From Bolinopsis microptera (lineage: Eukaryota > Ctenophora > Tentaculata > Lobata > Bolinopsidae): 60,000 nucleotides of DNA. This document shows positions 36,476 through 60,000 of this stretch, in pieces; within the stretch, counting starts at the first letter, position 1, and each line of letters starts with the position of its first letter. The stretch is taken from assembly GCF_026151205.1 (NCBI RefSeq), contig NC_087083.1, forward strand, positions 11,532,944 to 11,592,943, written 5' to 3'. A program made the translations under genes and the position numbers. The notes under the pieces were generated by a model. The model searched no databases. It saw nothing but the letters and a program-made list of their open reading frames with translations, and had not been told where the DNA came from.

Positions 36476-37315
36476 AATAAATGGATTATTTTTACTGTCG
36501 ATTTGAACTGTAGCTGTACTATTTCAATAGAATACCAACTTCCTTGTCCATAAAGGAGAATATAAGTGCTGAGCTGCAACTCTGAAACAAAAATTGTATT
36601 TCAAATTGATTGCACAATACTGTTGTTTCAAATGTAAGAATCTTTTTGTTGGCTACGAAGTGGGGATTCGCAATTTTGCAAAAAACGACATCAAACTATC
36701 AAATGAGAGCATCTGCCGAAATTATGCAAATCACACTGAAGAACAATGAAGAAGAGCGGCCGATATCACAATCACAGTAGCCGGGTTTCTTTATAGGAAG
36801 ACAAATACAGGAGCAAAGCATAAATCATCGATGACAAATTACCGAATATTTTGATCCGGTTTCGTGATTCGTTAATATCAGTCACAAGAGAGAATCGTGC
36901 GCTCTCATTGGTTTTTATACTAGCGAGCATTAGCTCAAAGGTGCAACTCAATAATTGAGTTATTTGAAGCTCCTCCGATTGGATTGCAATGCGCTTTGTG
37001 ACATGACATGTGATCCGCTGTCCACGTGGTGTTTACTTACCTATCAGATCACTTTAAAGTAACATATACCTAGTCGTCCAACTGGACGGTTCTCCGCTAG
37101 ACATATTTAATGCAATTTTTGGCCTTTTTTAAACTAATAATTAACCATAACTATGTTAAATAGTAATTTTTGTAAAAAACAGATAGTTTAGGCGATAGGT
37201 AGTGTTCTTGCCGATAGATAGCTGGCGTATCACCGGTATTGCTACTACATGTGGAACACAAATGGTAAAACATTGGAGGGGCACTCCACATGGAGTGCTC
37301 TTCGCTGTTTAAGGG

Positions 37316-38928
37316 TTAAGGTTAGATGCTAGGGATACAAAATACTTATTGAATTCATTAGCTATAACTCTGCGATCAGTTATCTTTTCATTGTCTATGG
37401 TAAATATAGGTCTGATATCACGTTTCTGTTTGCCACGAATTTTATTTATCAGTTCCCAGGTTTTCTTGGAATTTCCCTGAGTTTCAAGAAACTTGTCAGA
37501 ATAATATTCAGATACAGCTTTTTTACGAACCTTTTTTAGAGCCTTTCTATATTCTTTGTAGTCATCATAACGGTTTCTTTTATTACAGCAGATAGAACAC
37601 AGGCATGTGCCCCCTTTTGTGTCAGTTTCGCCTTGTTTACACTTAACTTTCCTGACTTTCGCCCAGTCATCATACAGCCCATGGCAGTGGTTTACTGAGG
37701 CTATAATCCCGCCAGTAATCCATGGGTTGTTCTGGATAGTGCGCTTAGTGGTTTTGGGTACAGCTAGTTTGCAGGTTTCGTCAATGCTGTTTTTAAAGAT
37801 ATCATGAAAGTTAGTAAAATCTATAATTGGTTCATTGTCTAGTTTGTTACCCAAGACTTCAGCAAATTTATCAGTGTTTGATTTACAATAGTCATAATAT
37901 TGAGTGTGCTTGTGAATATTTTTGGTCTTGCTAATTTCCCAGTCAAATGTTGTAAATATAGGGAGGTGATGAGATATGTGATCAGTTATGACTCCAGAGG
38001 CAGTAACAGAGTCTAGGTCATTTGTAATGATGTTGTCGATGCACGAGGCATTACATCCAGGCTTTTCATGAGTTGCTAATGATATCAATGGAAAGAAGCC
38101 TCTACTAAATAGGACATCTTCATACTGTGCAATAATGCTACTGTGGTTACTATGGAGATTAATGTTAAAATCACCTGCAATGTGTGTATGTTTTGGTGCT
38201 TTATCAAGTATTGACGACAGTTCTTGGAGAGCTTGCTCAGCATTGCCACTTGGAGGGCGGTATATTACTCCTATAGAAGTAGAATTTCCTAGACTACCTA
38301 TAGTTACAAAGAGGGTTTCTAGATTTTCTGTTACTTGTGAAAGGTTGTTATTTTTGACAGCATTGAAGGAGTTCAGGACATATAGAGCTACTCCTGAGCC
38401 TTTTACTTTCGAGTCGAAGGTATCTTGATAGAAGCTCTCATAGCCTGTGAGTTCGTACAAGTTTTTCATTTCAGGGCCTACATTCGTTTCAGCAAGACCA
38501 ATTACAGAGAATTTGTTAGTAAACCTAGCTATTTCAATTGCCAGCGAGTCAAAGTTTGATTTGTTGCCATCAAGATTTTGAAATATTAGTGAGTTTTGCA
38601 CTTGTAATTCGTTAGCAAAGGTGCGGTTTATGTCTTTTACAGAATATGAGTCACAGCTTTCAAGTACCTCAGAGATTTTACGTATTACATCATCTGCATC
38701 AGTGTTGTCATCATTGTCATCATTCAGAAGCTTAAATGGGTTATAACGGTTTACTGCTAGGTGGATACAATTATTGCAGTACAAGTCAACTTTTTTATTT
38801 TGTTTGTCACTGGTGTTAAAACATCTAGAGTGAATGGGACAATTACAGTGGTAGCATTCAATTATAGATTGACCTAAGTAAATACTTTTTAAACAGTGGG
38901 CACAGACCTCTTTTTTAAGAACATTCAT
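37316..38928 (-). pseudogene. LINE-B ORF2, 5' half (zinc finger and APE endonuclease)
   Basis: Starts with an ATG that overlaps the ORF1 stop in an ATGA arrangement (38928/38925). It opens with a Cys/His zinc module (CAHCLKS...CYHCNCPIHSRC...CNNC). An apurinic-type endonuclease follows: LIFQNLDGNKSNF, LAETN, VIYRPPSG, AGDFNINLH, CIDNIITND and DHISHHLPIF. Next come the conserved C-x(11)-C-x-C-x2-C cluster (CKQGETDTKGG...) and a basic helix. It stops artificially seven bases inside the piggyBac end. The frame resumes exactly at 32855. Confidence 0.92.
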
Positions 38929-39473
38929 GCTGGAGGCTGATAGCCTTCAACATGAGGCTGTCCTCCGGCGGCATGAGAATAAAGTGTTGAACCAACCTTA
39001 CCGTCCCTCCTCCCCCTCTTCCTCCTATCAGTCCCTCCATGCATCCTAACAAGGACAGTATTACGGATTAAAGTAGCAAGTTTGGCCACTCCCTTCCAAT
39101 TAAGGTGCAGGTAATCCGTTCGGCCATATCTGTCAAACTCCCTGGACAAGGTTAGGCAAAGTAAGCCAGTGTTATTGTCAAGGAAGTCATCAAAGCCATC
39201 AACGAACTGGACACCAAAGTTTTTGGGGAGTAGCTCACGACGAATAAGTTCTATAAAGTAAAGAACTTTCCTATTTAAATCAGCATTTCGAGTTGGTAAA
39301 AGAGGACAAAGAAATACTTGGGCAGTTGGATTGGCCTCTTGAATTTGCTCAATCTTGAATTCTAGATGACTAAATATAGCAAAAATTTCACGCTGAGATT
39401 TAACAGATGGTCTTCTAACATCATTTATACCACACATAATAACAATTTGACAATATTTTAATTCAAATTCCAC
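38925..39473 (-). pseudogene. LINE-B ORF1, 3' part (SGNH esterase C-terminal half)
   Basis: Begins in the middle of the esterase domain near VIMCGINDV (block III, GxND) and continues to TDYLHLNWKG (block V, DxxH), then a basic C-terminus (GGTDRRKRGRRDG) ending HVEGYQPPA. The GDS block and the PHD/AlkB part seen in LINE-A are lost through 5' truncation at about 39470. Its stop overlaps the ORF2 start (ATGA). Confidence 0.85.
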
Positions 39474-44740: not shown

Positions 44741-46594
44741 TTACAAGCTGAAATATATAGTTCGGAATTAATAGTTCAGGAAAATAATTCAGGGTAGAGC
44801 GATAAAAAGGCATGTAGTTCTAATGTACCTTCACAATAGTGACTTTAAATATATCAAGCAAGAGATTAAACTGTATTATAAAGGAAAACAAATTTTTTTA
44901 GCAGAGGTACTGAAATGATTGTTATCTAAAATGAGTACCCTTAGGACACGTTAAATAGTGCATGAACCATAAATATGTTTGAACCATAAATTAATTATCC
45001 GTAGTGGGTAAATGTGTTCACACTTCCATTGGATGATGAGTTAAGTGGTCAGTTGTACAATTGTGCAGTTCCAAATCGGCAAGCCAATACTGAAAGTAAA
45101 AAACGAGTAGGAAAACAAAATAGTTAGGATAACAAGATCCTATGAAAAAACTGCTGTATCAAATTAAACATTGATGAGACGTGTTAGATAGCTGCTTTAA
45201 ATAACATTACGGGTAACGGGAGACAAGAGTAAATTACGAACAAAACAGAAAGGACATCGGAACATGGTTTCTCACATTTGTGTAATGAAATGCTATGCTA
45301 ATGGTAGCGCTCGATCTGTTATGCCTTTAAGTTTAACCGCGCGCACTGCACACGCCAATTGTCAGAGTGTTTTTCACCACTAAAATGTGCTACTCCTGTT
45401 AAATTCAAAACTTTCTTCTCGCTGAAAATGCTAATAAATTTTATCGAACAGTATTTTTGGGTAAAAATATTTCCAAATGCGACCATAAAATACCTTTAAA
45501 TGTTTGCGCGCGAAAATCTATTGTTTGTAAATTTTTTTAAATGTATACTGAGAAAATTTTTAGAAATGGTTTGTGATTTCTTATGATATTATTATTAAAA
45601 GATTTTGATTATAAAAAGTTCTACATATTGTAATGTATTAAAATGCATTATATGTGAGGCGTTTCTTCATACTTACTTGCCGAAATTGCCTGAAACCTTG
45701 AAATGTGAAAGAATAATAAGCATTTAAAAATGAGATCCAAGAACCATTTGAATGTCAAAAAGATTTTAAACCAGGTAACTTTAATTTACAATTTAAAACA
45801 CTTTAAAATGGCGATGACGCACGTTAATATATAATGGTCAAAATTCCTTATAATATATAAACAGTTTTTATTTTTTAAACGATTATTGGCGGGTCGTAAA
45901 GTAATATAAAAAATAAACTCTTCGATATTCAGTATTTGTTAATTATTACCTAAAGACCTCGGTAGTAAGCCTTTAGTTGTCAATAATTATAAACACATTC
46001 AACATTAAAAATAGAGGTATGGCGGAACAAAAGGCTAAACACCGCTCAGCAGTGAGAAAGTTACAATACTTTTAAATTTTAAAATAGTATTTTCAATGGG
46101 ACACAAAACAATCAACATTTTACTCAAATTTTAGTATAATTTGAACCTGAAAAGTGTTTCGAATATTTTATTCATTAGCTGTTATCTTTAATTTATTAAA
46201 CGATATGAATTAATTCATAACTTGATGCGCGGTTTTGGGTAATGTTGTGCAGCGCGCGGCCGAAATTGTGACAAACAGAAGGAAATAACTCGTCATCAAA
46301 ATGTATCGCGCGAGAATGTTTTAGTAGACGCGCATGTGACGTCACAAGTGAAGAGCTCGCAGTGGGTAATATATCGTCAACTTTAAATATTTACAATGCA
46401 ACAATTCATTAATCTGTAAACACGCGTACTCCAGCCCCTAAACGCATAAATTGTTATGCGGCGCGGCTCAAGCCGCGCACGCACGTATTATTTTATACTG
46501 TTTGCTTTCTAATAAATATCGTGCCAATGTGTACGTCTAAATTGTAAACGTTCATGTTTTGTGTAAAGTGAATCCAATTGGGACTAGTGACAAG
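44741..46594. other. AT-rich spacer, no gene seen
   Basis: No coding region, TIR or tandem repeat recognised. A few GCGCGC patches lie at 46250-46470. Confidence 0.4.
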
Positions 46595-46603
46595 GATAAG
46601 GAC

Positions 46604-46652
46604 CCAAGTGCCTGTACGGCTTTTTCGGACCCCTGTGGACCACTACTCTTGA
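46604..46652 (-). promoter_or_regulatory. Conserved LINE 3'UTR block (LINE-A copy)
   Basis: Plus-strand AAGGACCCAAGTGCCTGTAC...CGGACCCCTGTGGACCAC, matching 30096-30142 in LINE-B at nearly the same distance from the stop codon (966 bp against 939 bp). Confidence 0.6.
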
Positions 46653-47617
46653 AATCACTCTACAACATTGAACATCTATATCTACTACGTCATTTGGCAA
46701 TTATTGTCATTAATCTAACTTTCTAATTAATTGCTGAGGGGGAAGAGTAAACGCTTCACATTAAAATTCAATATACAAAATTCAAAACCATCAATACGGT
46801 ATTAAATATTATGGACAAATCTATAGATCTATTTCGTAGTCATATATTCACATGATTTGCTTTATATTATCTTAATTCTGTAATGAAGTACAGTAGGATT
46901 TGTGTTTCGAGAAAGAAAGGTTGCGGTCAAATTATTAACAAAAGTAAACAAAAGTCCATCAGGGACTCCGTGGAGTCGAAAAAGGTACACGGCCGCTGTC
47001 TGGTGCTGCTAGGCATTTATTGATCAAGATGTTTTATTGTATTGATTTATAATGATTCTATTGTTCGTGACTAATCAAGTTCTAAGTGGAGGTATAAAGT
47101 GCTGCTTAAGATACTTCGTCATCTCATGTCCAGTATAATGATTAAGATAGTATACAATGCAGTTTTAGTAGTTGACCCATACAGTTAAGTCCGTCATAAC
47201 TCACAATCGTTAAGTCGTCGGTCAATTGTCAAAGTCGTCGTGTGTTTATTCGTTGAGATAGCAGTAAGATAAGACGTTACGCGCGCGCGCGTTTAATCCC
47301 GTCGACGTGAGGTGTGACAATGAAAACGCCATAGAATAATTATTTTCGCGCGTTACGTAGAGTTTACCAGTGTGTAATACTAGTTAACACTGGGTGTACA
47401 CTGAGTGTAAGTGTAAGTTTCATATACAAGCCGTTGAATATTTCCAATTTTGAGTGTATCGTGAGCATGTTTTACATTGCGATTGCTCGGTACTAGTGTG
47501 TTTGTGTATATATATATATATCATTTGTGGAGTATGGTGTAAGTAATGTTTTTGGTTGGAGTGCAGTGGTTGTATGTATGAGAAAAGATATATGGTCATT
47601 TTAGTAACTCACATAAA

Positions 47618-50600
47618 TCAGAACTTGAGCTCATTTGTGGCAAAATTAAGCTCACACCAATCAAGTGTATCATGCTTGAATTGCAATTCTCGTAAGGCAA
47701 TTTTCAATATATTCTTAAACCCGTTTGTCGGAGTATTAAAACTTATCTTACTTGATGTTTGTCGACAGCTGTTCCACATGTAGGATGATTGGTAGATGAA
47801 TTGTGAGGATGGTTGTGATGTAAAGAAATAATCCTCTTGTCGTGGTGACCTGTTAAATGATGAGTACAGTGATAATGGTTCCTCTAACTTATTAATTTTG
47901 AATAGTTCTAAGAGACAAGTGTACTTGTACAGATTGTGGACCGTCAACAACCTGTGGGTTTTAAACAAGGGCTTGGAGTGTTCTTTTTGGTAAAAGTCCA
48001 CCCCCAGTCTTTGCTTATCAACAGGTCGTGTTCGGGCACACGTTTTAAACTTCTCTAGGTAAGCTTCTCTATCCCCAAACAGAATTCTTATACACTTTTT
48101 CTGTGTTTTAAAGATAGGTTCAAGTCGGTTATTGCTAATACCACCCCACACAGATATTCCAAATCCTAAATGTGATTCAAATAGAGTATGATATAAATCC
48201 TTATAATACTGCTTTGGGACAATGTGTCGTATTCTGCACAGCTTTCCTACTTCGCATTTAAGTTTTGAGTTAAGTGACTGCGTATGTGATTTCCAGTTAA
48301 GTTGGTCGTCAATAATAACGCCTAGAAATTTAGCTTCTTGAACTCTTTTAATAACTACATTATTTAAAGTTAGTATGTTCTCGTCATTTTCTACTTCCTC
48401 TTTGGCCCGTGAGGGTTTAAAATGAATAAAACAACATTTCTTAATGTTAATATGTAATAAGTTTAGTTTCATATACTTGTACACAAATGATAGAACTTCA
48501 TTTCCTTTTTCGTATAGTCTTTTGACACATGTGTCTTCTATAAATATGTTAGTGTCGTCGGCAAATAGTATAAACTTTCCTATAATTGATGAGTTACGGA
48601 TGTCATTAATATAAATAATAAAAAGTAACGGACCAAGACAGCTCCCCTGCGGCACTCCATAGACTACTGGAAGTTTCTCGGAGTCTTCACCTAATACTGA
48701 GACATACTGGTATCTGTTCGACAGGTAACTTGCTATAAGGTTATTTGCATTTCCACGGATTCCATAATTTTCTAACTTATGTAGTAACTTTTCATGTGAT
48801 ATTGTATCAAAGGCTTTACTAAGATCAATAAATATTCCAAGAACGTGTTGTTTTTTCTTGAGGCAAGATTCTACGTGGTTCACTGAGTAATTTAGGGCAT
48901 AACTGGTCGAGTGATTTTTACGGAATCCGTACTGGTTTTCATATAAGGAGTTCTGTGAATGAAAGAAGCTGTATAATCTATTGAATATAATCTTTTCAAA
49001 TATTTTACCAAACACAGCTAGCGTTGATACAGGTCTATAGTTTTCAAGGAGTTCCTGGTTATCTTTCTTGTAAATGGGACTAATCCTTCCAACTTTAAGG
49101 TCATCTGGAAATATGCCATCTTTCATACATTCGTTATACAGTACAGTGAGTAAAGGAGTAACTATTTTAGAGGACTGCTTAATTACATGAATCGGTATGT
49201 CACTTGCCTTGCCATTTTTAAGTTCAGATATGATTTTGCTAACCTCGTCTGTTGTGCAGTCATGCATGTAAATGCTGGAAGTGTTTGAAAGCGGTAGATA
49301 ATCATAGAAACTAGGTATACTGTTTATGTTAATTTGTCCAAGATCATTGTAAGCGGTATTTAGGTCAGAGGCTAATGATACAAAATATTTATTGAATTCG
49401 TTTGCTATGATCCTTCTATTTGTTATCTTAACGTTGTCTATGGTGAACAGCGGCTTTATTTCACGCCGCCGTTTACCTCTTATACGATTTATTAGTTCCC
49501 AGGTCTTTTTACTATCACCGCTATTTTCAGCAAATTTACCAGAGAAGTATTCTGTTTTCACAGTTTGACGTGTTTTCTTTAGGACTTTTCTGTATTCTTT
49601 GTAGATAAGGTAGCGACTACGTTTTAGTGAGCATTCAGGGCACTGGCAAATGCCGCCCTTGTTATCAGTTTCCCCAAGTTTACATTTTCTATTTCTTATC
49701 TCAACCCAATTTTCGTACAGTTTATGCTGATTATTAATTGAGCAAATGAGACCGGGAGTTATCCAAGGGTTAACCTGAACAGTTCTCTTAGAGGTTTTCG
49801 GGGTCTCTAGTTTAAACGATTTTTCGACGCAGTTTTTGTAAGTGTCATGGAATTCAGTAAAGTTATGGATTGTTTTAGTTTTAAGCTCATCTTCAAGATC
49901 CACTAGGAAGCCGTTAACATTTGATTGACAGAAGTCGTAATATTGTTTAAAAGAAGTTTTTTCAGAGTTGACTTCAACATTCCAGTTAAATGTGTTAAAA
50001 ATAGGTGAGTGATGAGTTATTCGTTCTTTTAGGGTGCCTGAAGTAATCACATTCTCAATATCGTTAGTAATAATGTTGTCTATGCAGGATGCTTTACAGC
50101 CTGGTTTTTCGTGGGTAACAATAGATATTAACGGACAAAATCCTTTACTGAATAATATTTCTTCATATTTTTGAACATTTTTGTTATCTTTATCATGAAG
50201 ATCGATATTAAAGTCTCCAGCTAGATAACTAAACTTCGGCATGTGATCAAGAAGGTTAGAAAGTTCAACTAGAGCTTGGGAAATACAGCCACTTGGTGGA
50301 CGATACAAAACACCTACATTAACAGGTTGATCTTCGTTACTTAATGATAAGACAAGTATTTCTAGATGTTCTGTGACTTGTGATATATTCTCAATTACAG
50401 TAGCATTTAATTTATCGTCAACATAAAGGGCTACTCCAGTGCCCTTTTGTTTGTTAGGTGCTGTGTCCTGATAGTAACTATTATAACCGTCGAGCTGAAA
50501 TAGATTGCTTAATTCTTTTCCAGTGTTGGTTTCAGCTAGGGCTATTACGGAGAATTTTGTTTTGTACCTACAGGTTTCAATGGCAAGGTTGTCAAAATTT

Positions 50601-50971
50601 GATTTATTTCCATCAATATTTTGAAAGAGAATAGATGATTGTTTCTTAACTTGGTTGCAGAGAATATTTGTAAGGTCAGATGCAGTGTATGAGTTACAAT
50701 CATTTAAAGTATTTGAGATTTTGGTTGTGTATTCGTCTAGGTTGTTGTCGTCGTCGTCATTGTCAGTGAGTAGTTTAAATGGGTTGTATTTAACCTTGTC
50801 TAAATGGATACAACGAGTACAGTAAAACTCATTAGATTGGCTATTTGGATTTGATTTGCGATAGCATTTATGGTGCATTATGCAGTCACAGTGAAAACAT
50901 TCAACTATTGTTTGGCCGATGACTATGTTCTTAGAACAGACAGGACATACCTCCTTAATGAGGGGAGTCAT
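47618..50971 (-). CDS. LINE-A ORF2: zinc finger, APE endonuclease, reverse transcriptase
   Basis: Intact, 1117 aa. Residues 9-54 form a Cys/His zinc module (C9, C12, C25, C28, H34, C36, C51, C54). Residues about 114-335 form an APE-type endonuclease: N118 in FQNIDGN, E147 in LAETN, YRPPSG at 223-228, GDFNID at 252-257, D298 in CIDNIIT and the SHxP-like THHSPI at 319-324. A cysteine cluster C430-x(11)-C442-x-C444-x2-C447 precedes a basic helix. RT spans about 580-900: ENYRPVSTLAVFGKI, IDLSKAFDTI (D716), GVPQGSCLGPLLF (772-784) and FADDTNIF (D805, D806). The C-terminus carries GISVWGGISNNRLEPIFKTQKKCIR. The start ATG overlaps the ORF1 stop as ATGA, implying termination-reinitiation. It would nick DNA and prime cDNA synthesis for retrotransposition. 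Confidence 0.96.
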   Translation of the reverse strand: MTPLIKEVCPVCSKNIVIGQTIVECFHCDCIMHHKCYRKSNPNSQSNEFYCTRCIHLDKVKYNPFKLLTDNDDDDNNLDEYTTKISNTLNDCNSYTASDLTNILCNQVKKQSSILFQNIDGNKSNFDNLAIETCRYKTKFSVIALAETNTGKELSNLFQLDGYNSYYQDTAPNKQKGTGVALYVDDKLNATVIENISQVTEHLEILVLSLSNEDQPVNVGVLYRPPSGCISQALVELSNLLDHMPKFSYLAGDFNIDLHDKDNKNVQKYEEILFSKGFCPLISIVTHEKPGCKASCIDNIITNDIENVITSGTLKERITHHSPIFNTFNWNVEVNSEKTSFKQYYDFCQSNVNGFLVDLEDELKTKTIHNFTEFHDTYKNCVEKSFKLETPKTSKRTVQVNPWITPGLICSINNQHKLYENWVEIRNRKCKLGETDNKGGICQCPECSLKRSRYLIYKEYRKVLKKTRQTVKTEYFSGKFAENSGDSKKTWELINRIRGKRRREIKPLFTIDNVKITNRRIIANEFNKYFVSLASDLNTAYNDLGQININSIPSFYDYLPLSNTSSIYMHDCTTDEVSKIISELKNGKASDIPIHVIKQSSKIVTPLLTVLYNECMKDGIFPDDLKVGRISPIYKKDNQELLENYRPVSTLAVFGKIFEKIIFNRLYSFFHSQNSLYENQYGFRKNHSTSYALNYSVNHVESCLKKKQHVLGIFIDLSKAFDTISHEKLLHKLENYGIRGNANNLIASYLSNRYQYVSVLGEDSEKLPVVYGVPQGSCLGPLLFIIYINDIRNSSIIGKFILFADDTNIFIEDTCVKRLYEKGNEVLSFVYKYMKLNLLHINIKKCCFIHFKPSRAKEEVENDENILTLNNVVIKRVQEAKFLGVIIDDQLNWKSHTQSLNSKLKCEVGKLCRIRHIVPKQYYKDLYHTLFESHLGFGISVWGGISNNRLEPIFKTQKKCIRILFGDREAYLEKFKTCARTRPVDKQRLGVDFYQKEHSKPLFKTHRLLTVHNLYKYTCLLELFKINKLEEPLSLYSSFNRSPRQEDYFFTSQPSSQFIYQSSYMWNSCRQTSSKISFNTPTNGFKNILKIALRELQFKHDTLDWCELNFATNELKF

Positions 50972-51782
50972 GGTTGGTAACCATCCACGTGACCCTGACT
51001 AGCAGCAGCAGGAACAACAGGACCAGTTTCTCTTCCAGCAGTCGCATCCCTGTAGGATCTATCGTCTACCCTTGTGGACCTCCTCTTCCTTTTGTCGATA
51101 CCACCGTTAATCCTGAGAAGAACAGTGTTACGAATAAATTGACCTAACTTTGCTAGTCCCCTCCAGTTGAGGTGAAGGAAGTCCGGTTTTTGGTATTTGT
51201 TGAGGTCGCGAGAGAGAGAGCGGTCAAGGAGACCATCCCTATCACAGAACTCATCAAATCCATCCACATAACTGACACCAAAATTGGACGGGAGCAGCCT
51301 ACATCGAATCAAACTGTTAAAGTATATAAGCTTTCTATTTAAATCAGCACGTTAAGAAGGAATTGTTGGACAAACATATACATGCACACCCGGATTAATA
51401 GATTGAATCTGGGCAATTTTTGAAACTAGATGGTTGTAGATTATATCAATATCGTTTTGGCTTTTTACATCTGTTTGTTTCAGGTCATTAACCCCACACA
51501 ATATAACACAGTTTCTATAGCCACAGGACACATAAGGATCAATACTATCGACAGTTGGGGCAAAGAATCGTTTTCCAGGTAGCCATTTGCCGAATGACTT
51601 GGCAGGATCAGAACCGAATTTCAGTCCGCCGGTGTTTGAGTCCCCAATGATACATGTAGCGTTTCTATTCAGGGAACTGACTGATCTCAATGTTATACTG
51701 TAGCGCAGCCCAGTTATCTCGCCTGCATCGATACGATGGTGGAACAGTGCTTGGCTACGACGAGTCATTACATATAATGATC
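50968..51782 (-). pseudogene. LINE-A ORF1, 3' part (end of AlkB domain, SGNH esterase, basic tail)
   Basis: Continues ORF1 after the inserted DNA element. It opens with GSLYVMTRRSQALFHHRI (the distal metal-binding His lies at about 51741-51736) and RYSITLR (51705-51685), the AlkB R-x5-R signature. The SGNH domain follows: GDSN with Ser at 51639-51637, GVND at about 51495-51484 and DFLH at 51183-51172. One in-frame TAA (51352-51354) breaks the domain where LINE-B has an Arg codon; the frame is otherwise open to the stop at 50968. The C-terminus is basic (DKRKRRSTR). Confidence 0.88.
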
Positions 51783-51787
51783 CTGGG

Positions 51788-52897
51788 CACAGTGGGCTGT
51801 GAGTGGGGGTCATGCTAGCATAGGGTATTTTAGACCATCACACATGCCCCTAACTTTGTTTCTAAGGTAATTTGGGTACAAAAATACGATTCCAATCATT
51901 TACAGGGCCCAAAATGTCTTAGAAAAAATTTTTGGGCCGATTTTGAGCACTCCTGTAGTCCAAAAATAGGAGGCTGATCCCAGGAAAAGTTGTTTTTTAG
52001 AGGTTTAATCAATTTTAAAGCTCTTCTATGAACTGTAAACGAAAGACAGCTATCTTAGGAACTCAAATCTTTTTGAATCATGAAAAAACATTGATCAGAA
52101 CAAAAGTTGTGCCCATTTATATGACCAAATTGTTCTGAAACACCCAAATTTTTCCTGTTATTTTCAAAAATTTCGTTTAAAATCACGATTTTTTTGGATT
52201 TTTATCAATTTTAACTATAATAATTGTGATATATTGATTTTTCATCCATATGCTTCTAGTCTAGGATGCAAAAAACGCCACAAACATGGAGAATAACTAA
52301 GATATGTCAATTTAATAGCAAAATTGAGCTCATAAATTATCTAAAAATGCAGCAAATTTGACCCAATTTTTGAGTTTCTTAATTTTTTCTTGACAATTCC
52401 CCCAAAAGTGCCCAAAGTGATTCTTATTGCATCTGATAGGGAATTGTCTAAGCTTTCTGATGATACCATGCATTATACCGAACTATTGCAAACCAACAAC
52501 GATTTCTGTCGTTAAATACCCCAAAAATTGCCTAAAATACACGCCATAAAAAAGGCGCGGTCAAAAATCAGGTGAAAATGTTAAAGTCACACAGTTTTTT
52601 TTAGATGGCTGAGTATTCTTAAGTACTATACTGTATTTCAATTATTAAAAACTGCCTTGATCAGGCATTTTAGCCCAAAATAATAAATATTAGGCAATTT
52701 TTGGCTAAAAAAGGCAAAATTTCTTGACAGTGAAAAATGCTATTTTTTCACGCGACGCCATTTTGGCATCTTGCAAAGTTTTTAATTACGGTTTTTTGCA
52801 TGAAATCGGGCTAGCGTTTTACAATAAGGAAAGCTTATTTTCAAAGAAATTTAAGAAAGTCGATTTTAGGCCTATGCTAGCATGGTAGCCCACTGTG
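51788..52897. mobile_element. Transib/RAG-like non-autonomous DNA element (CACAGTG ends) inside LINE-A ORF1
   Basis: A 1110-bp insertion flanked by a 5-bp duplication CTGGG (51783-51787 and 52898-52902). Both termini read CACAGTGGGCT inward. The block CATGCTAGCATAGG recurs inverted at both ends, after a 16-nt spacer from the heptamer on the left (51795-51810) but 6 nt on the right (52885-52890). Removing the element plus one CTGGG (1115 bp) restores the ORF1 frame. The interior has no coding frame of note. A CAC(A/T)(A/G)TG heptamer with a GC-rich 5-bp duplication is diagnostic of Transib/ProtoRAG transposition, and CACAGTG is the exact RSS heptamer consensus. No nonamer-like box is obvious. 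Only one copy is in the window. Confidence 0.82.
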
Positions 52898-54230
52898 CTG
52901 GGCCACATAGTTGCTTGTGCTCATCGATACCTGTACTAGCATCAGAGAAAGAAACATGACATGCAGTACCAAGAGAGACTGTAAAGATACTTGATTCCGG
53001 GTGGATAGAAGGCTCGTTATCAGAGTGTCTAGGCAAGGTGCTGCTTGTGCCGTCAAACCGATTCACCAAACAGCTGTTAACCTGAGGTTGGTCACCTGAA
53101 CAAAACTCACTGTTGATTCTGTCGATGAGTTTTCTCAAGGGTGGTGGTATTGCCTTTGGTGTCTTGGACGACTTAGATCCAAGATAATCGTACCGTTCCC
53201 CATATGATAGGCAGGAGCGTTCGTTTTCAATTTTGAAGTCTGTGCTGCTCAAATCAAATAGGTCAACTAGTTCTTCCGCAGTCTTCTGATCTATATAATC
53301 GTTTTTGAACAGTTCCACAGGTTTCTGCTCATGATGAGGTGGCTGCAAAAGGACAGGTGGTGCTGGAGGACGAGGATGCTGTGCAGGAGGTAGGTTGGGA
53401 GGAATGCAAGGACCAGGGTTATGCAATGGCTGTATAGAACTTATAGACTGTTTTAGTTCAGCAATGCCTGCAGCTACAGTGGGCTCATTTGCAGAAAGTG
53501 CGGTGAGTTGTTCTGAGATGCTCTTCAGAAACTGCTCAGATGAGTCTGTAGATGGGGATGATTCAGGGGAAGGTCTAGATGCTAAAAGTTTAAGGTCCCT
53601 CTGTAGTTCAGCAATGTTGGTATTGATTGATTCTAATGATTTGTCATGGAGCTTTATTTCATTATTTAGGCCATTAAGGGAGTTCTCTTTAAGAAGCAGG
53701 TGTTGAAGGTGAACGTCGAACTGGGAGAGAGTGTCAAGGTTCCTAGAGAACTGTTCGAAGTCAAATTTTTCAAGAGCTGAGCCTGCTGAGCTTGCTGATG
53801 CCACAAGTGCACTGACAGTTTCAAGATTCTTAACAGCTGTAGATGCTTCAAAATCTGAGTTGGCCTGTTGCAAAGCCCTTGTGTTCCTGCAGCTGTAACA
53901 AAATTCGTCTCTCTGTTTCTTCAGTGTTGATACTGGTGCCACGAAGCAGTATGGGCACAGCCATTCTACCATGGAGTTGATAGCTGACCTCGCTATACCC
54001 TTCATAGACAAGCAGTCCACATGCCACTCTTGATGACACTTAGAACAGTCAATGAGGTAAACTTTACCGTTAAAAGAGCGTTGACATGGACATTTCTTCT
54101 TGTCCCTATGTTTCCTGTTTACCTGATCTTCATTGTCCACTGTAGATTGATCGACTAAAATGTTGCGAGACAAGCTATTAGATGTTTTAGGAGTACCTGA
54201 ATTCTTCCTAGTATTTGACGCCATTTTCAA
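52898..54230 (-). pseudogene. LINE-A ORF1, 5' part (PHD finger, coiled coil, AlkB-like dioxygenase N-terminal part)
   Basis: Starts at ATG 54230. Residues 47-95 form a PHD finger (C47, C49, C62, C65, H70, C73, C92, C95), with a further CxxC at 111-114. Residues about 155-265 are a helical, coiled-coil-like region and 270-300 are Pro-rich. From about 307 an AlkB-like 2OG-Fe(II) oxygenase begins: LSYGERYDYLG, PPPLRKLIDRIN, NSCLVNRFDG, RHSDNEP with the HxD metal ligands H402 and D404, then SIFTVSLGTACHVSF. The domain is cut at residue about 443 by the CACAGTG-ended element and resumes in frame at 51782. The full ORF1 would be 715 codons plus stop. Likely role: RNA-binding and chaperone functions of a LINE ORF1 with an added demethylase-type domain (inference). 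Confidence 0.88.
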
Positions 54231-54976
54231 ATCAAATGTAAGTAATACTGACCAAATAGATCCGACTTGGGGTCGGCTCCCGTTAAGTGTTTTGTTTTGG
54301 AGGGGATTAGGACTTCAGAGTTGATGACCCTAGTAAAGTGTAGATGACCCTAATAGAGTGTAGAATGTAGATGACCCTTAGCTTAGTACGCCCCTTCGGG
54401 GGAGTTGTAACATACCATTCCTGAACACTCAAATTATTTGTTATATAGTAGTGTTGAAAGTATTAAAACGCGCCGCACAAACTAGCATTCTTGCTTCGCA
54501 TCGAAGACGGAAAGGGTTGACATCGTCAAGCAAGTCATATCTTTTTTAAATGATAAGTGGGTTTTGCCAAGGTGCCAAATTTAATGATGCGCAGCTTTTG
54601 GAGCATCCGTTAGTGTAAAAGTTGTAGCGCGATGCATTACTGGCCCGCGCCGCGCATCTTCTCGCAACCACTGTATGCAAATCGGCGAGATGCGAAGGAT
54701 TGACATCGTGAATCAAGTGTAAAAGTCGCATATTTGACGAAAGTTGTTAATTCGGCGTTTTATTTTGTCATATCACATAATTTTAGTTTCTGGAATGAGA
54801 TCATTGTGAAAATTTGTAAAGACTTTCTAATCGGATTTTCAAAATTGTCCCAAAAACTTGATGGATATCGGAATTGATTTAATAATTGATAATGAAAATG
54901 GACCAAAAGACGTTGCCAGTCTATTAGTAAACTAACCAATTTTTGTTAAAATTGTATTGAGGGAAGGTTACTCAAT
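54231..54976. other. LINE-A 5' leader and upstream non-coding DNA
   Basis: GTAGATGACCCTA-type units repeat three times at about 54320-54381. Further right, GAAGGATTGACATCGTGAATCAAG (54694 onward) and AAGGGTTGACATCGTCAAGCAAG (54510 onward) are imperfect direct repeats, related to 26148-26182. No gene seen. Confidence 0.5.
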
Positions 54977-56190: not shown

Positions 56191-58723
56191 TATAATCTGC
56201 AAGTAGTTACAGTGAAGATGATCCGCTGAACAACCATATTTCCATAGACGAGATAAAATCAGCTATAGAAAGGCAAGAAACAAATGACAAATCATGTGAT
56301 GCAGACAATATTCACCCCACCATCCTCAAACACATAAAAACAAATTGTCTTCACGTCTTGCAGATCATATTTAACTGGTGTATGAGCACAGGAAAATGGC
56401 TGTGGAAATCTTCCGATGTAACATTCTTGAGGAAAGAAGGAAAATCCAGCTACATGTTACCTGGTGCCTATAGACCGATTTCCATATCATCCTACTTTGG
56501 AAAGATTTGTGAAAGAGTGCTAGATAAAAGATTGAGACTCTTCCTGGACATTGAAGGAACTCTTGATGAAGATCAGGAAGGTTTTATTGTAGGGAGATCA
56601 ACAACGCGATATCTTTTCAGAATGCTGGCTAACCTTGAGGAAGTTAAACGACAGAAGCTGGCATGTATAGTGCTTTTCCTTGACTTCGAAAAGGCATTTG
56701 ACAGTGTTCATCTTCCATCACTATGTGTCAAACTATCAACTCTCGGTATTCAAGGAAATATTCTTAACGTGCTGAGAAGTTTCCTGTTCAACCGGACGAT
56801 ATGTCTAAAAGTGAACAACTATAAAGGAGAAAAAAGAAAATGCACAATATTTGGACTACCTCAGGGGGCTGTACTCTCACCTCTCCTCTTTATCCTATAC
56901 ATAGCAGACATGACGCACAACACCCCGGAAGAGGTAAAAAGATATCTAAGCTGCTACAAATTTGCTGATGATGGTACACTTATGATTTCCTTTGAGAACA
57001 TCTCCGGATGCCATGAAAAAATGCAGATGGTATGTGACCACCTTAGCAAGTGGTGCATCAAGAACAAGCTAGTAGTGAACTGTGATACAAATAAAACAGA
57101 GGCAATAATCTCGAAAACTGCAGCCTATAATGAAGAACAGAAACCTGCAGAATTATGTATTAATGGGAAAAGCATCAACTACGTCAAAAGTACGAAGGTC
57201 CTTGGGGTAATAGTAGATGAGGACCTCAATTTCAAGAAACATGCGTCTCAAAAACTTAAAGAATGCAAAAGAAAGTGGGGATTAATAACAAAATCAACTA
57301 ACCGCAACTATGGTCTAAACGTTTACAGCCTCACTCTCCTCCTTAAGACAATGGTCCTCACTAAACTGTTCTACGCAGCACCTATTTGGCTTCACAAGTG
57401 TCTCAATCAATTTAAAAGCTTCTGGAATAAAATAATTCTAAAAATATCTGGATCAGTCCTGAACCCACAAAGGGAATTAACCGAACTTGCTCTCCACCTA
57501 CCACCACTGGATGTGCAACTCGAAGCTCTCTCGGTTAAATTCATGTGCAAAATACTCACACAAGGTGACAATCTTTCAGCTACCCTCTACCAAGTTGATG
57601 AAAGCAGAATACCAAGTTTTCATGTCCTAACAATGTCACTGAAAAAGTACTTCCTCTGGAAAGAAAATAAGTCACACGGAACCAGAATGATAGACCTAAC
57701 GCAGCAACATTTCAAGGATCTAGCCTATTACACTCAGGCAGACATAATGAGCTACAAAAATAAGATCTGGATTGACAGCATCGAAACAAATCTGCAATGC
57801 AGAACTGTCAGTAACAACAAGGAGACCAAGATACTCGGTGTGATCACAAAGATCAAAAACAGTGGGCTGCTCCTAGACAAAAACAACTTTTTATTCGGGC
57901 ACAACACGAGTAAAAATCTGGACAGCCGAATAATGGACTACATTCACGGCAGCTCACCACTCTTTGCGAACATCCAAAAGATCATGGGTGGTGGCAGTGG
58001 TGAGGCCTGTCGTTTCTGTAACAGCTTCATTGATTCCCCCGTACACCAGCTCCTATTGTGTCTGGAGGTGCAAGACACCAGTTACCTGCAACTGAAAGAA
58101 GAGCTGGGTGGGGCAGACTCACATTCCTATCTAGATGAAGTGTTAACAAAAAGCAGCACACAAAAAGCATTCATTAGGAGAGTCGAATTTCTTTGGGGAC
58201 AAAATGATGCTCTCCAGGATTTATCCGACTAGAAAGATCATGAAATAAAGACTCTGCAAACATCTCAGAGAAATATTACCACCATAAAGAACAAAGAGGG
58301 AGTATCCTGGACCCCGAAATCCACCACTTTTCTGTACTTTCAGAGGTACCAATGTGGCAGGAAACCAGGGCTCATGCTGCCGCTGAGCTAAAGCAGTAGA
58401 GGGGATGGCGGCTTCTCTAGGATCTAACACGTCCTGAAGCAGACCAACACTATGTCCCAACGCACTGGTGTTGGGATGTCTGCCCCCGGTGCCTGTCCGG
58501 GTCAATAAAGCAGTCAAGCATCATGTATGTTATGTTGAGCATTCTCAACCAACAAATGTGGGAACTCCCACGAAAGACCAAAACAGATCTAAAGAGACAC
58601 TTAACAACATTGGAAAATAGACTTCAATTTGTTTATATAATTTATAAAGCGTATATTATTGCCCACGTTAAGGGGCCTGTTAATAATTTATTAAATTATT
58701 AGCTATTTTAGATTTAATAATAA
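56191..58723 (+). mobile_element. LINE-D: 5'-truncated non-LTR retrotransposon inserted in LINE-C
   Basis: A plus-strand element bounded by the 8-9 bp duplication TCTTGGTTC. ORF2 spans 56196-58232, the 3'UTR 58233-58700, and the tail is TTTAATAATAAT. The 3' end matches the isolated fragment at 44641-44740, which confirms the boundary. The 5' end is truncated inside ORF2, upstream of the RT. Confidence 0.88.
56196..58232 (+). pseudogene. LINE-D ORF2, truncated: reverse transcriptase and C-terminal region
   Basis: Open from 56196; the first in-frame ATG at 56358 lies inside the RT and is not a true start. Motifs in order: ISIDEIKSAIERQ (upstream RT region), GAYRPISISSYFGKICERVL, FIVGRSTT, LFLDFEKAFDSVH (catalytic Asp), FGLPQGAVLSPLLFILYIADM, YKFADDGTLM (catalytic DD) and VLGVIVDEDLNFKKH. 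The C-terminal half has LPPLDVQLEALSVKFMCKIL and a Cys/His finger-like CRFCNSFIDSPVHQLLLC near the end (C-x2-C...H...C). This places it in the Jockey/R1/I-like group, not CR1. The endonuclease and ORF1 are missing. Confidence 0.88.
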
Positions 58724-58729
58724 TCTTGG

Positions 58730-60000
58730 TTCAGTCAAATAGATAAGATGATTATAATTGGCATATTTAAACATATTACTTAAATAATCTGGTCCCATAC
58801 CATTAAGACATTTATAGACAAGAAGCAATAACTTATATTGAATTCTGTAACTAATAGGCAGCCAATGAAGGTCTTTCAGAGTGTCTCCTAGATGATCATA
58901 TTTATATAGTCCTACTATAGCTTTAGCAGCTGCATTCTGAACGAGTTGGAGTTGGTGGATGAGGTTGTCACTAATTCCATAATAAAGAGCATTGCAGTAG
59001 TCCAATTTGCAGACAATGATGCTGTTAATTATAAACTTGAGCTGAGCTTTACTAAAGAGATATTTTCTCCTTATAACATTCCTAAGGAGTCTGAAACAAT
59101 GCTTTTTGAGGGACATGATTTGAGGCTCAAAAGTAAGATGATGGTCAATTTGAACACCAAGGTTCTTTGTTGTGCTGACAAATCTGATACAGGTATCATT
59201 TGATAGCTCAACTCCCCCTATACTGACCTGGTTTAGAACTTGAGGTGAGGCGATGATAAGTATTTGTGTTTTTCCAGGATTAAGTTGAAGGCAATATTCA
59301 ACCATCCAGCGCTGTATGGTCCTAGCGCAATTCACAATTTGGATGCCCAGAACATTTACCTGATCACAAGGTTTGAAAGTTTTATATACCTGGTGGTCAT
59401 CTGCATATCCTTGCACATTGAATCCAGATTTCTCGATGGTCCTATACAGAGATCTGATGTATATGTTGAATAGCACCGGTCCTAACACAGAACCTTGAGG
59501 TACACCAAATTCTAGAATGATCATATCACTAGTAGAAGAGCCTATTCTGGTTCTTTGAGTGCGGCCTACCAGGAAACTCTTGAACCATTTAAGAGCAGTA
59601 CCTCCGATATGAATCTCTTCAGAAAGAATTTTGAGTAATTTTCTGTGTTCCACTGTGTCAAAGGCTGCAGATAAATCGAGCATCATGAGAACAGTGGAGG
59701 GTTTGCTATCACATGCCAGCAGTAGGTCATTTGTTACTTTTAACAAGATGGTCTCAGTAGAATGGAACTTTTTATAGGCAGATTGCTGTGGAACATTGAG
59801 ATCATTTTTAGCCAGATGTTCATTTAACCTTTTCAGCACAACTCTCTCGATGAGTTTACCCAGAAAAGAGAGGTTAGATATAGGTCGATAGCTCTTGAAG
59901 TCATTTGGATCAAGTTTGTGGTCCTTGATGGTAGGAATAATGTCAGCAGTCTTCAAACCGTCGAATGTGCCCTTAGCTAGAGACTGGTTGACCAGTTTGC
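58730..60000 (-). pseudogene. LINE-C ORF2, RT part, open to the window edge
   Basis: The frame enters from beyond 60000 (LAKGTFDGLKTADIIP) and shows KSYRPISNLSFLGKLIERVV, QSAYKKFHSTETILL, MLDLSAAFDTVEH (catalytic Asp), FGVPQGSVLGPVLFNIYI and GYADDHQVY (catalytic DD). Then come TKNLGVQIDHHLTF, KLDYCNALYYGI, AAAKAIVG, LHWLPISYRIQYKLLLLVYKCLNG and LTEP. It is cut in the EPR codons by LINE-D. A stop at 58703 lies in the inserted sequence and is not the native end. The typical animal L2/CR1 arrangement. Confidence 0.92.

Follow-up and report, generated by a model that had tools for sequence, protein, structure and literature searches.

The first open reading frame (ORF1) of a LINE retrotransposon from the ctenophore Bolinopsis microptera encoded an AlkB domain between a coiled coil and an SGNH-type esterase and, as judged by comparison of its genomic relatives, this domain is kept by purifying selection in this LINE lineage. 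The element was located in a stretch of 60,000 nucleotides (the window), where it occupied positions 46367..54469 of the minus strand together with a nested insert of 1,110 bp. These ends were approximate, being set by where blastn matches with other copies in the genome stopped: the 5' limit at 54469 was shared by 4 of the 12 loci compared (L005, L008, L010, and L017), and the 3' limit at 46367 was found in L017. An ORF2 with endonuclease and reverse transcriptase (RT) downstream of ORF1 identified the element as a LINE.

ORF1 started from the ATG at 54222-54224 and contained, in this order, a PHD-type zinc finger, a coiled coil, AlkB, and the esterase. The finger (53946..54092, minus strand) had eight Cys/His residues in the C4HC3 order, with the first pair one residue apart (direct reading), and the PHDs of DIDO1/BPTF were the nearest PDB profile matches to this part of ORF1. 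However, PF00628 scored 18.8 bits (E 0.0016) in the window and 20.6 bits in P0001, a relative of the window ORF1, both below the cut-off of 24, and for this reason the finger was named PHD-type only. The next region (53307..53885, minus strand) was a predicted helical coiled coil with a Pro-rich linker, based on weak profile matches to coiled-coil proteins and on the AF2 model of P0001, which had helices between 106 and 259. The esterase and the ORF1 C-terminus (50968..51669, minus strand) matched PF13472 with E 0.00097 and 20.1 bits against a cut-off of 32.9; the score of this domain was below the cut-off wherever it was matched, in the window as well as in the relatives. A PHD finger and an esterase had both been proposed for this ORF1 by a sequence-only reading; their key residues were indeed kept, but neither domain reached the curated Pfam cut-off.

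The stop of ORF1 and the start of ORF2 overlapped in an ATGA at 50968..50971 (minus strand, direct reading). The same overlap was present near 38925 in a second LINE of the window, and in these two copies it may reflect coupled translation reinitiation. ORF2 (47618..50971, minus strand) was intact and encoded 1,117 aa with an N-terminal zinc finger, an endonuclease, and an RT according to Pfam (RVT_1, E 3.5e-36; Exo_endo_phos, E 3e-4 and 21.0 bits, just below the cut-off of 24.5; the N-terminal zinc-finger matches were weak). Its closest relative among the 120 matches listed of 393 was 96% identical, and the same 120 included three named Mnemiopsis leidyi proteins at 67-68% identity. Judged by frame length, a frame of 1,100 aa or longer lay downstream of ORF1 in 15 of the 20 longer loci (L015-L034). 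The second LINE (37309..39473, minus strand; profile A2 E 1.1e-65, ORFs) was a 5'-truncated member of a related subfamily that comprised the esterase end of ORF1, the remnant starting within the esterase, and the start of ORF2. Two further RT-like frames from other element types were recognized by eye at 56196-58232 (plus strand) and 58703-59998 (minus strand).

The AlkB domain of the window copy was split into an N-terminal part (52898..53306) and a C-terminal part (51670..51787), both on the minus strand. PF13532 matched the frame with the N-terminal part (52875-54311, minus strand) with E 1.1e-9 and 39.2 bits against a cut-off of 31.2, and gave a weak match in the right order (E 0.23) for the C-terminal frame alone (51355-51837, minus strand). 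A profile built from the relatives matched both pieces (E 1.4e-54 and, with profile A3, 1.1e-15), and PF13532 was above the cut-off in all eight relatives scanned (50.8-61.2 bits). By direct reading, the HxD motif was at 53019-53027 (His 53025-53027, Asp 53019-53021), the distal His at 51736-51738, and R-x5-R at 51685-51705 (Arg 51703-51705 and 51685-51687). In this set, HxD and the distal His serve the metal, and R-x5-R lies on the side of 2-oxoglutarate and the substrate. Thus, the AlkB domain and its full set of ligands were present where the sequence-only reading had put them. A match by chance was rejected on the basis of the Pfam score, the relatives, and 200 mononucleotide shuffles of 51301-54400, which yielded zero AlkB matches in six frames. 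The predicted fold was the double-stranded beta-helix of AlkB proteins, and a fold search with the whole-ORF1 model (pLDDT 79.2) returned AlkB-fold entries alone among the matches listed. The closest solved folds were ALKBH3 and ALKBH2, which share the ligand set at 21-24% identity in the top rows but, unlike the element AlkB, are stand-alone host enzymes. A search of a viral structure library ranked giant-virus AlkBs and RNA-virus polyproteins first, with 19% identity for the best match.

The interruption of the domain was due to a non-autonomous DNA transposon of 1,110 bp (51788..52897) inserted within AlkB. It had 11-bp inverted ends (CACAGTGGGCT) and was flanked by a 5-bp duplication (51783-51787 and 52898-52902), and such a target duplication was present in 4 of 4 copies read, including that of the window. 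The genome contained 40 matches to the insert, itself included; 31 of them spanned at least 1,108 bases, and the others among those 31 were 93-97% identical to it. The inverted ends in L011-L014 began with CACAGTG. These ends and the 5-bp duplications would fit transposons of the Transib/RAG type, in which the termini are similar to the V(D)J heptamer. The insert was absent from this site in nine loci of the same family (L002-L010) and in three of a related subfamily (L015-L017). Additionally, a TAA at 51352-51354 broke the esterase of the window copy, while P0001 and L002 had a sense codon there. The window LINE copy is therefore dead, its AlkB being split by the insert and its esterase stopped by the TAA. 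The proposal that all four domains share one frame thus failed for the window copy; uninterrupted copies were present elsewhere in the genome.

The genome searched (264.65 Mb, 232 contigs) had 97 matches to the N-terminal part of ORF1, some of which were pieces of one copy. AlkB was spanned by 78 of them, including 56 that read across it in a frame of 689 aa or more free of stops. When the same part was used as a protein query, 48 proteins were retrieved, including one named protein from the ctenophore M. leidyi, and 43 of the 48 carried a precomputed PF13532 label. To describe conservation, we used 29 ORF1 frames of 690 aa or more out of 33 loci (L002-L034) that were chosen to cover subfamilies, with long frames favored; this set left out the window copy (L001, L011) and the shorter frames in L009 and L010, and L012-L014 held the insert only. 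The 29 ORF1s formed nine clusters at 90%, with identity between them down to 35%. The five AlkB ligands (H, D, H, R, R) were present in 29/29, as were Ser, Asn, Asp, and His of the esterase, each of these nine positions being encoded by more than one codon. The YxYxG motif, which is common to several cellular AlkBs, was also invariant (29/29), whereas the residue following HxD varied (N in 15, R in 7, and D in 7).

The NG86 estimates of dN/dS for AlkB were below 1: 0.12 for L002-L015 (bootstrap 0.00-0.21), 0.13 for L028-L031 (0.06-0.24), and 0.20 for L019-L025 (0.10-0.32), with the pair L022-L028 saturated and giving no estimate, and the A-B AlkB dS of 1.4 near saturation. The pooled AlkB pN/pS within seven families was 0.19. 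A decayed passenger domain was rejected by the ligand invariance and dN/dS. In a 50-row alignment (48 protein hits and two window pieces), counting rows with letters, His of HxD was present in 45 of 47 and Asp in 45 of 46, and the distal His and both Arg were present in 44 of 44; the exceptions, P0028 and P0048, did not align over the motif. Further database relatives did provide counter-examples, namely P0190, in which Asp and one of the Arg are missing, as well as P0199, P0204, P0206, and a microbial protein, P0221, each without one or two ligands. Two outcomes had been named beforehand as speaking against the domain, a failing profile search and other genomic copies without the ligands; both were looked for and neither occurred.

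Synonymous divergence was uneven along ORF1. Between L002 and L015 it was 0.02-0.11, then 0.43-0.78 over the middle including AlkB, and then 0.02-0.20; between L028 and L031 it climbed toward the C-terminus, and between L019 and L025 it dropped past the N-terminal third. ORF1 is probably a mosaic in which segments containing or bordering AlkB have been swapped between LINE subfamilies.

AlkB was not peculiar to this LINE; several LINE types and Helitrons of the same genome also carried the domain. A Pfam AlkB search of the genome listed 150 places that each exceeded the cut-off (151 matches were counted, and 150 of 587 candidates were scored), with zero overlap with the 97 ORF1 matches. Together with the 78 matches spanning AlkB this makes at least 228 places, broken copies and host genes included. 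Ten of the 150 were read. Three were host-like genes, one similar to ALKBH2 (L042, 4e-60) and two to ALKBH3 (L041, 2e-39; L043, 2.6e-27). L040 had the same layout as the window LINE but was more divergent, with a weak PHD match, AlkB, an esterase motif seen by eye, and an endonuclease above the cut-off in the next frame. In L036, L037, and L038, AlkB with a below-cut-off esterase match preceded a different type of ORF2, which Pfam identified in L036 by its RT and a weak endonuclease and which was recognized by eye in the other two. Inspection by eye also showed L044 to be a broken copy related to L038. L039 possessed AlkB and a weak esterase match in a frame of 843 aa, had an RT frame downstream (L045), and had 56 genomic matches. 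According to these matches, AlkB is accompanied by an esterase-like part in the ORF1 of two further LINE types (L036-L038 and L039/L045). On the other hand, L035 2883-9998 (G000:C10:16871500-16881499) was a Helitron in which a single frame encoded SGNH (below the cut-off), AlkB, DUF6570, and Helitron_like_N. Of 41 genomic matches to Helitron_like_N, 6 lay in the same open frame as a match to AlkB, as judged from the listed positions and frame lengths, and two more places had an AlkB match within 4.5 kb. Viral and bacterial/archaeal contigs were scanned for encoded relatives, and none was confirmed.

In a first tree, rooted on the very divergent microbial AlkB P0228, the LINE AlkBs were non-monophyletic. 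After this tree was seen, P0227, P0228, P0231, and P0236 were removed, and the rebuilt tree separated 31 LINE rows from 19 others across one branch with support 99/99. A later tree, again without these four, was extended to other classes of element and to genes of the host and separated 22 element rows (LINE type 1, L040, LINE type 2, and Helitron) from 19 others with support 100/98. The three host-like genes (L041, L042, and L043) were outside the element clade, which joined neither the ALKBH2-like nor the ALKBH3-like genes. Recent capture of a host ALKBH gene was accordingly not favored, although grouping with the ALKBH3-like genes was not rejected (p-AU 0.11). L039 was outside the element clade in the best tree, which suggested, but did not establish, a separate AlkB origin for this third LINE type; a single clade including L039 was not rejected (p-AU 0.2). 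Long branches made the exact places of the Helitron and L039 rows unsure.

Enzymes of the AlkB type undo the methylation of RNA and DNA, and lesions on the Watson-Crick face block reverse transcription. We consider it rather probable that the ORF1 AlkB is a selected and active 2-oxoglutarate/Fe(II) dioxygenase whose putative function is to strip methyl groups from single-stranded nucleic acid of the element; that it is catalytically active is most likely. ORF1p, the presumed packaging protein of the element RNA, would multimerise on it via the coiled coil, and the tethered AlkB would take methyl groups off single-stranded element RNA or cDNA. In the ribonucleoprotein, the template or cDNA would be repaired, or a mark deposited by the host would be undone. 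The likeliest targets would be m1A and m3C, as for ALKBH3/ALKBH2; such Watson-Crick-face lesions are favored because reverse transcription is blocked by them, because no folds are nearer than those of ALKBH3/2, and because of the presence of AlkB in Helitrons, which points to a single-stranded intermediate rather than RNA alone. However, the shared fold by itself shows no substrate. In ALKBH2, the alignment placed an Asp after HxD, and this residue contacts the base; since the position varied among the 29 ORF1s, the substrate may differ from that of ALKBH2/3.

It is also possible, though distinctly less likely, that AlkB erases a silencing mark imposed by the host, either m6A on the element RNA or 6mA/5mC at the loci of the element, and that the PHD-type finger guides ORF1p to chromatin. 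The finger indeed precedes AlkB, and a host defense common to unrelated classes of element would fit with the module recurring in them. Moreover, an element-borne PF13532 AlkB in a Ty3/Gypsy lineage of the orchid Phalaenopsis is described in the excerpted text of PMC9289625 as an m6A demethylase in vitro. Against a benefit from m6A removal speaks ALKBH5, an m6A eraser that suppresses L1 retrotransposition according to the excerpt of PMC7873242. Hydroxylation or demethylation of protein (ORF1p, ribosomal or chromatin proteins) instead of nucleic acid is improbable: AlkB does sit among protein-interaction modules, and AlkB-fold enzymes such as ALKBH4 and ALKBH7 can act on proteins, but YxYxG was invariant here and the closest solved relatives act on nucleic acid. 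Finally, a non-catalytic fold kept just for RNA binding or ORF1p architecture is very improbable, because, even though the activity of many enzyme domains borne by transposable elements is unproven and P0190, P0199, P0204, and P0206 have lost ligands, all five were invariant in the full-length copies of nine subfamilies.

The architecture resembles, by its domains and not by a clade placed in an RT tree, the CR1- and L2-lineage LINEs, which according to the excerpts of PMC4120745 and PMC3905857 likewise have an ORF1 with a PHD-type finger, coiled coil, or SGNH-type esterase, an ORF2 with endonuclease and RT, and a reticulate evolution of ORF1; it differs from them in the AlkB between the coil and the esterase. 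In its excerpted part, PMC4120745 tabulated the ORF1 domains of 448 Jockey-superfamily elements, AlkB not being among them, and the corresponding parts of PMC3905857, which treated LINE esterases, and PMC5408684, which found esterases common to different retroelement classes, did not mention AlkB. The orchid elements share with ours a retrotransposon-captured AlkB proposed to act on element RNA, yet they are LTR elements with AlkB in an extra ORF, whereas here it is in LINE ORF1 across many subfamilies and in Helitrons (excerpt of PMC9289625). Similarly, in the excerpted sources (PMC544882, PMC9289625), plant RNA viruses carry an AlkB thought to shield the RNA genome from methylation, but in replicase polyproteins rather than LINE ORF1. 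Both "AlkB" and "Helitron" occur in the excerpt of PMC11294593, where alkB2 is treated as a host gene. In the titles and abstract starts of the matches listed from open-licence PMC, AlkB in a LINE or Helitron was not found.

Returning to the removal of methyl groups from element nucleic acid, we tentatively suggest that one AlkB module, usually with an SGNH-type esterase, has passed between at least two LINE lineages and Helitrons in the ctenophore lineage and would serve the same purpose in all of them, taking methyl lesions or host marks off single-stranded transposition intermediates. If true, element-encoded nucleic-acid repair or counter-defense would be common to retrotransposons and DNA transposons. 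The fixation of AlkB in ORF1 of many LINE subfamilies and in Helitrons suggests that nucleic-acid methylation limits transposition there, either as damage or as defense, a question that becomes testable with a single purified domain. These elements also provide a natural and varied set of AlkBs in which the residue adjacent to the metal motif varies from one subfamily to another.
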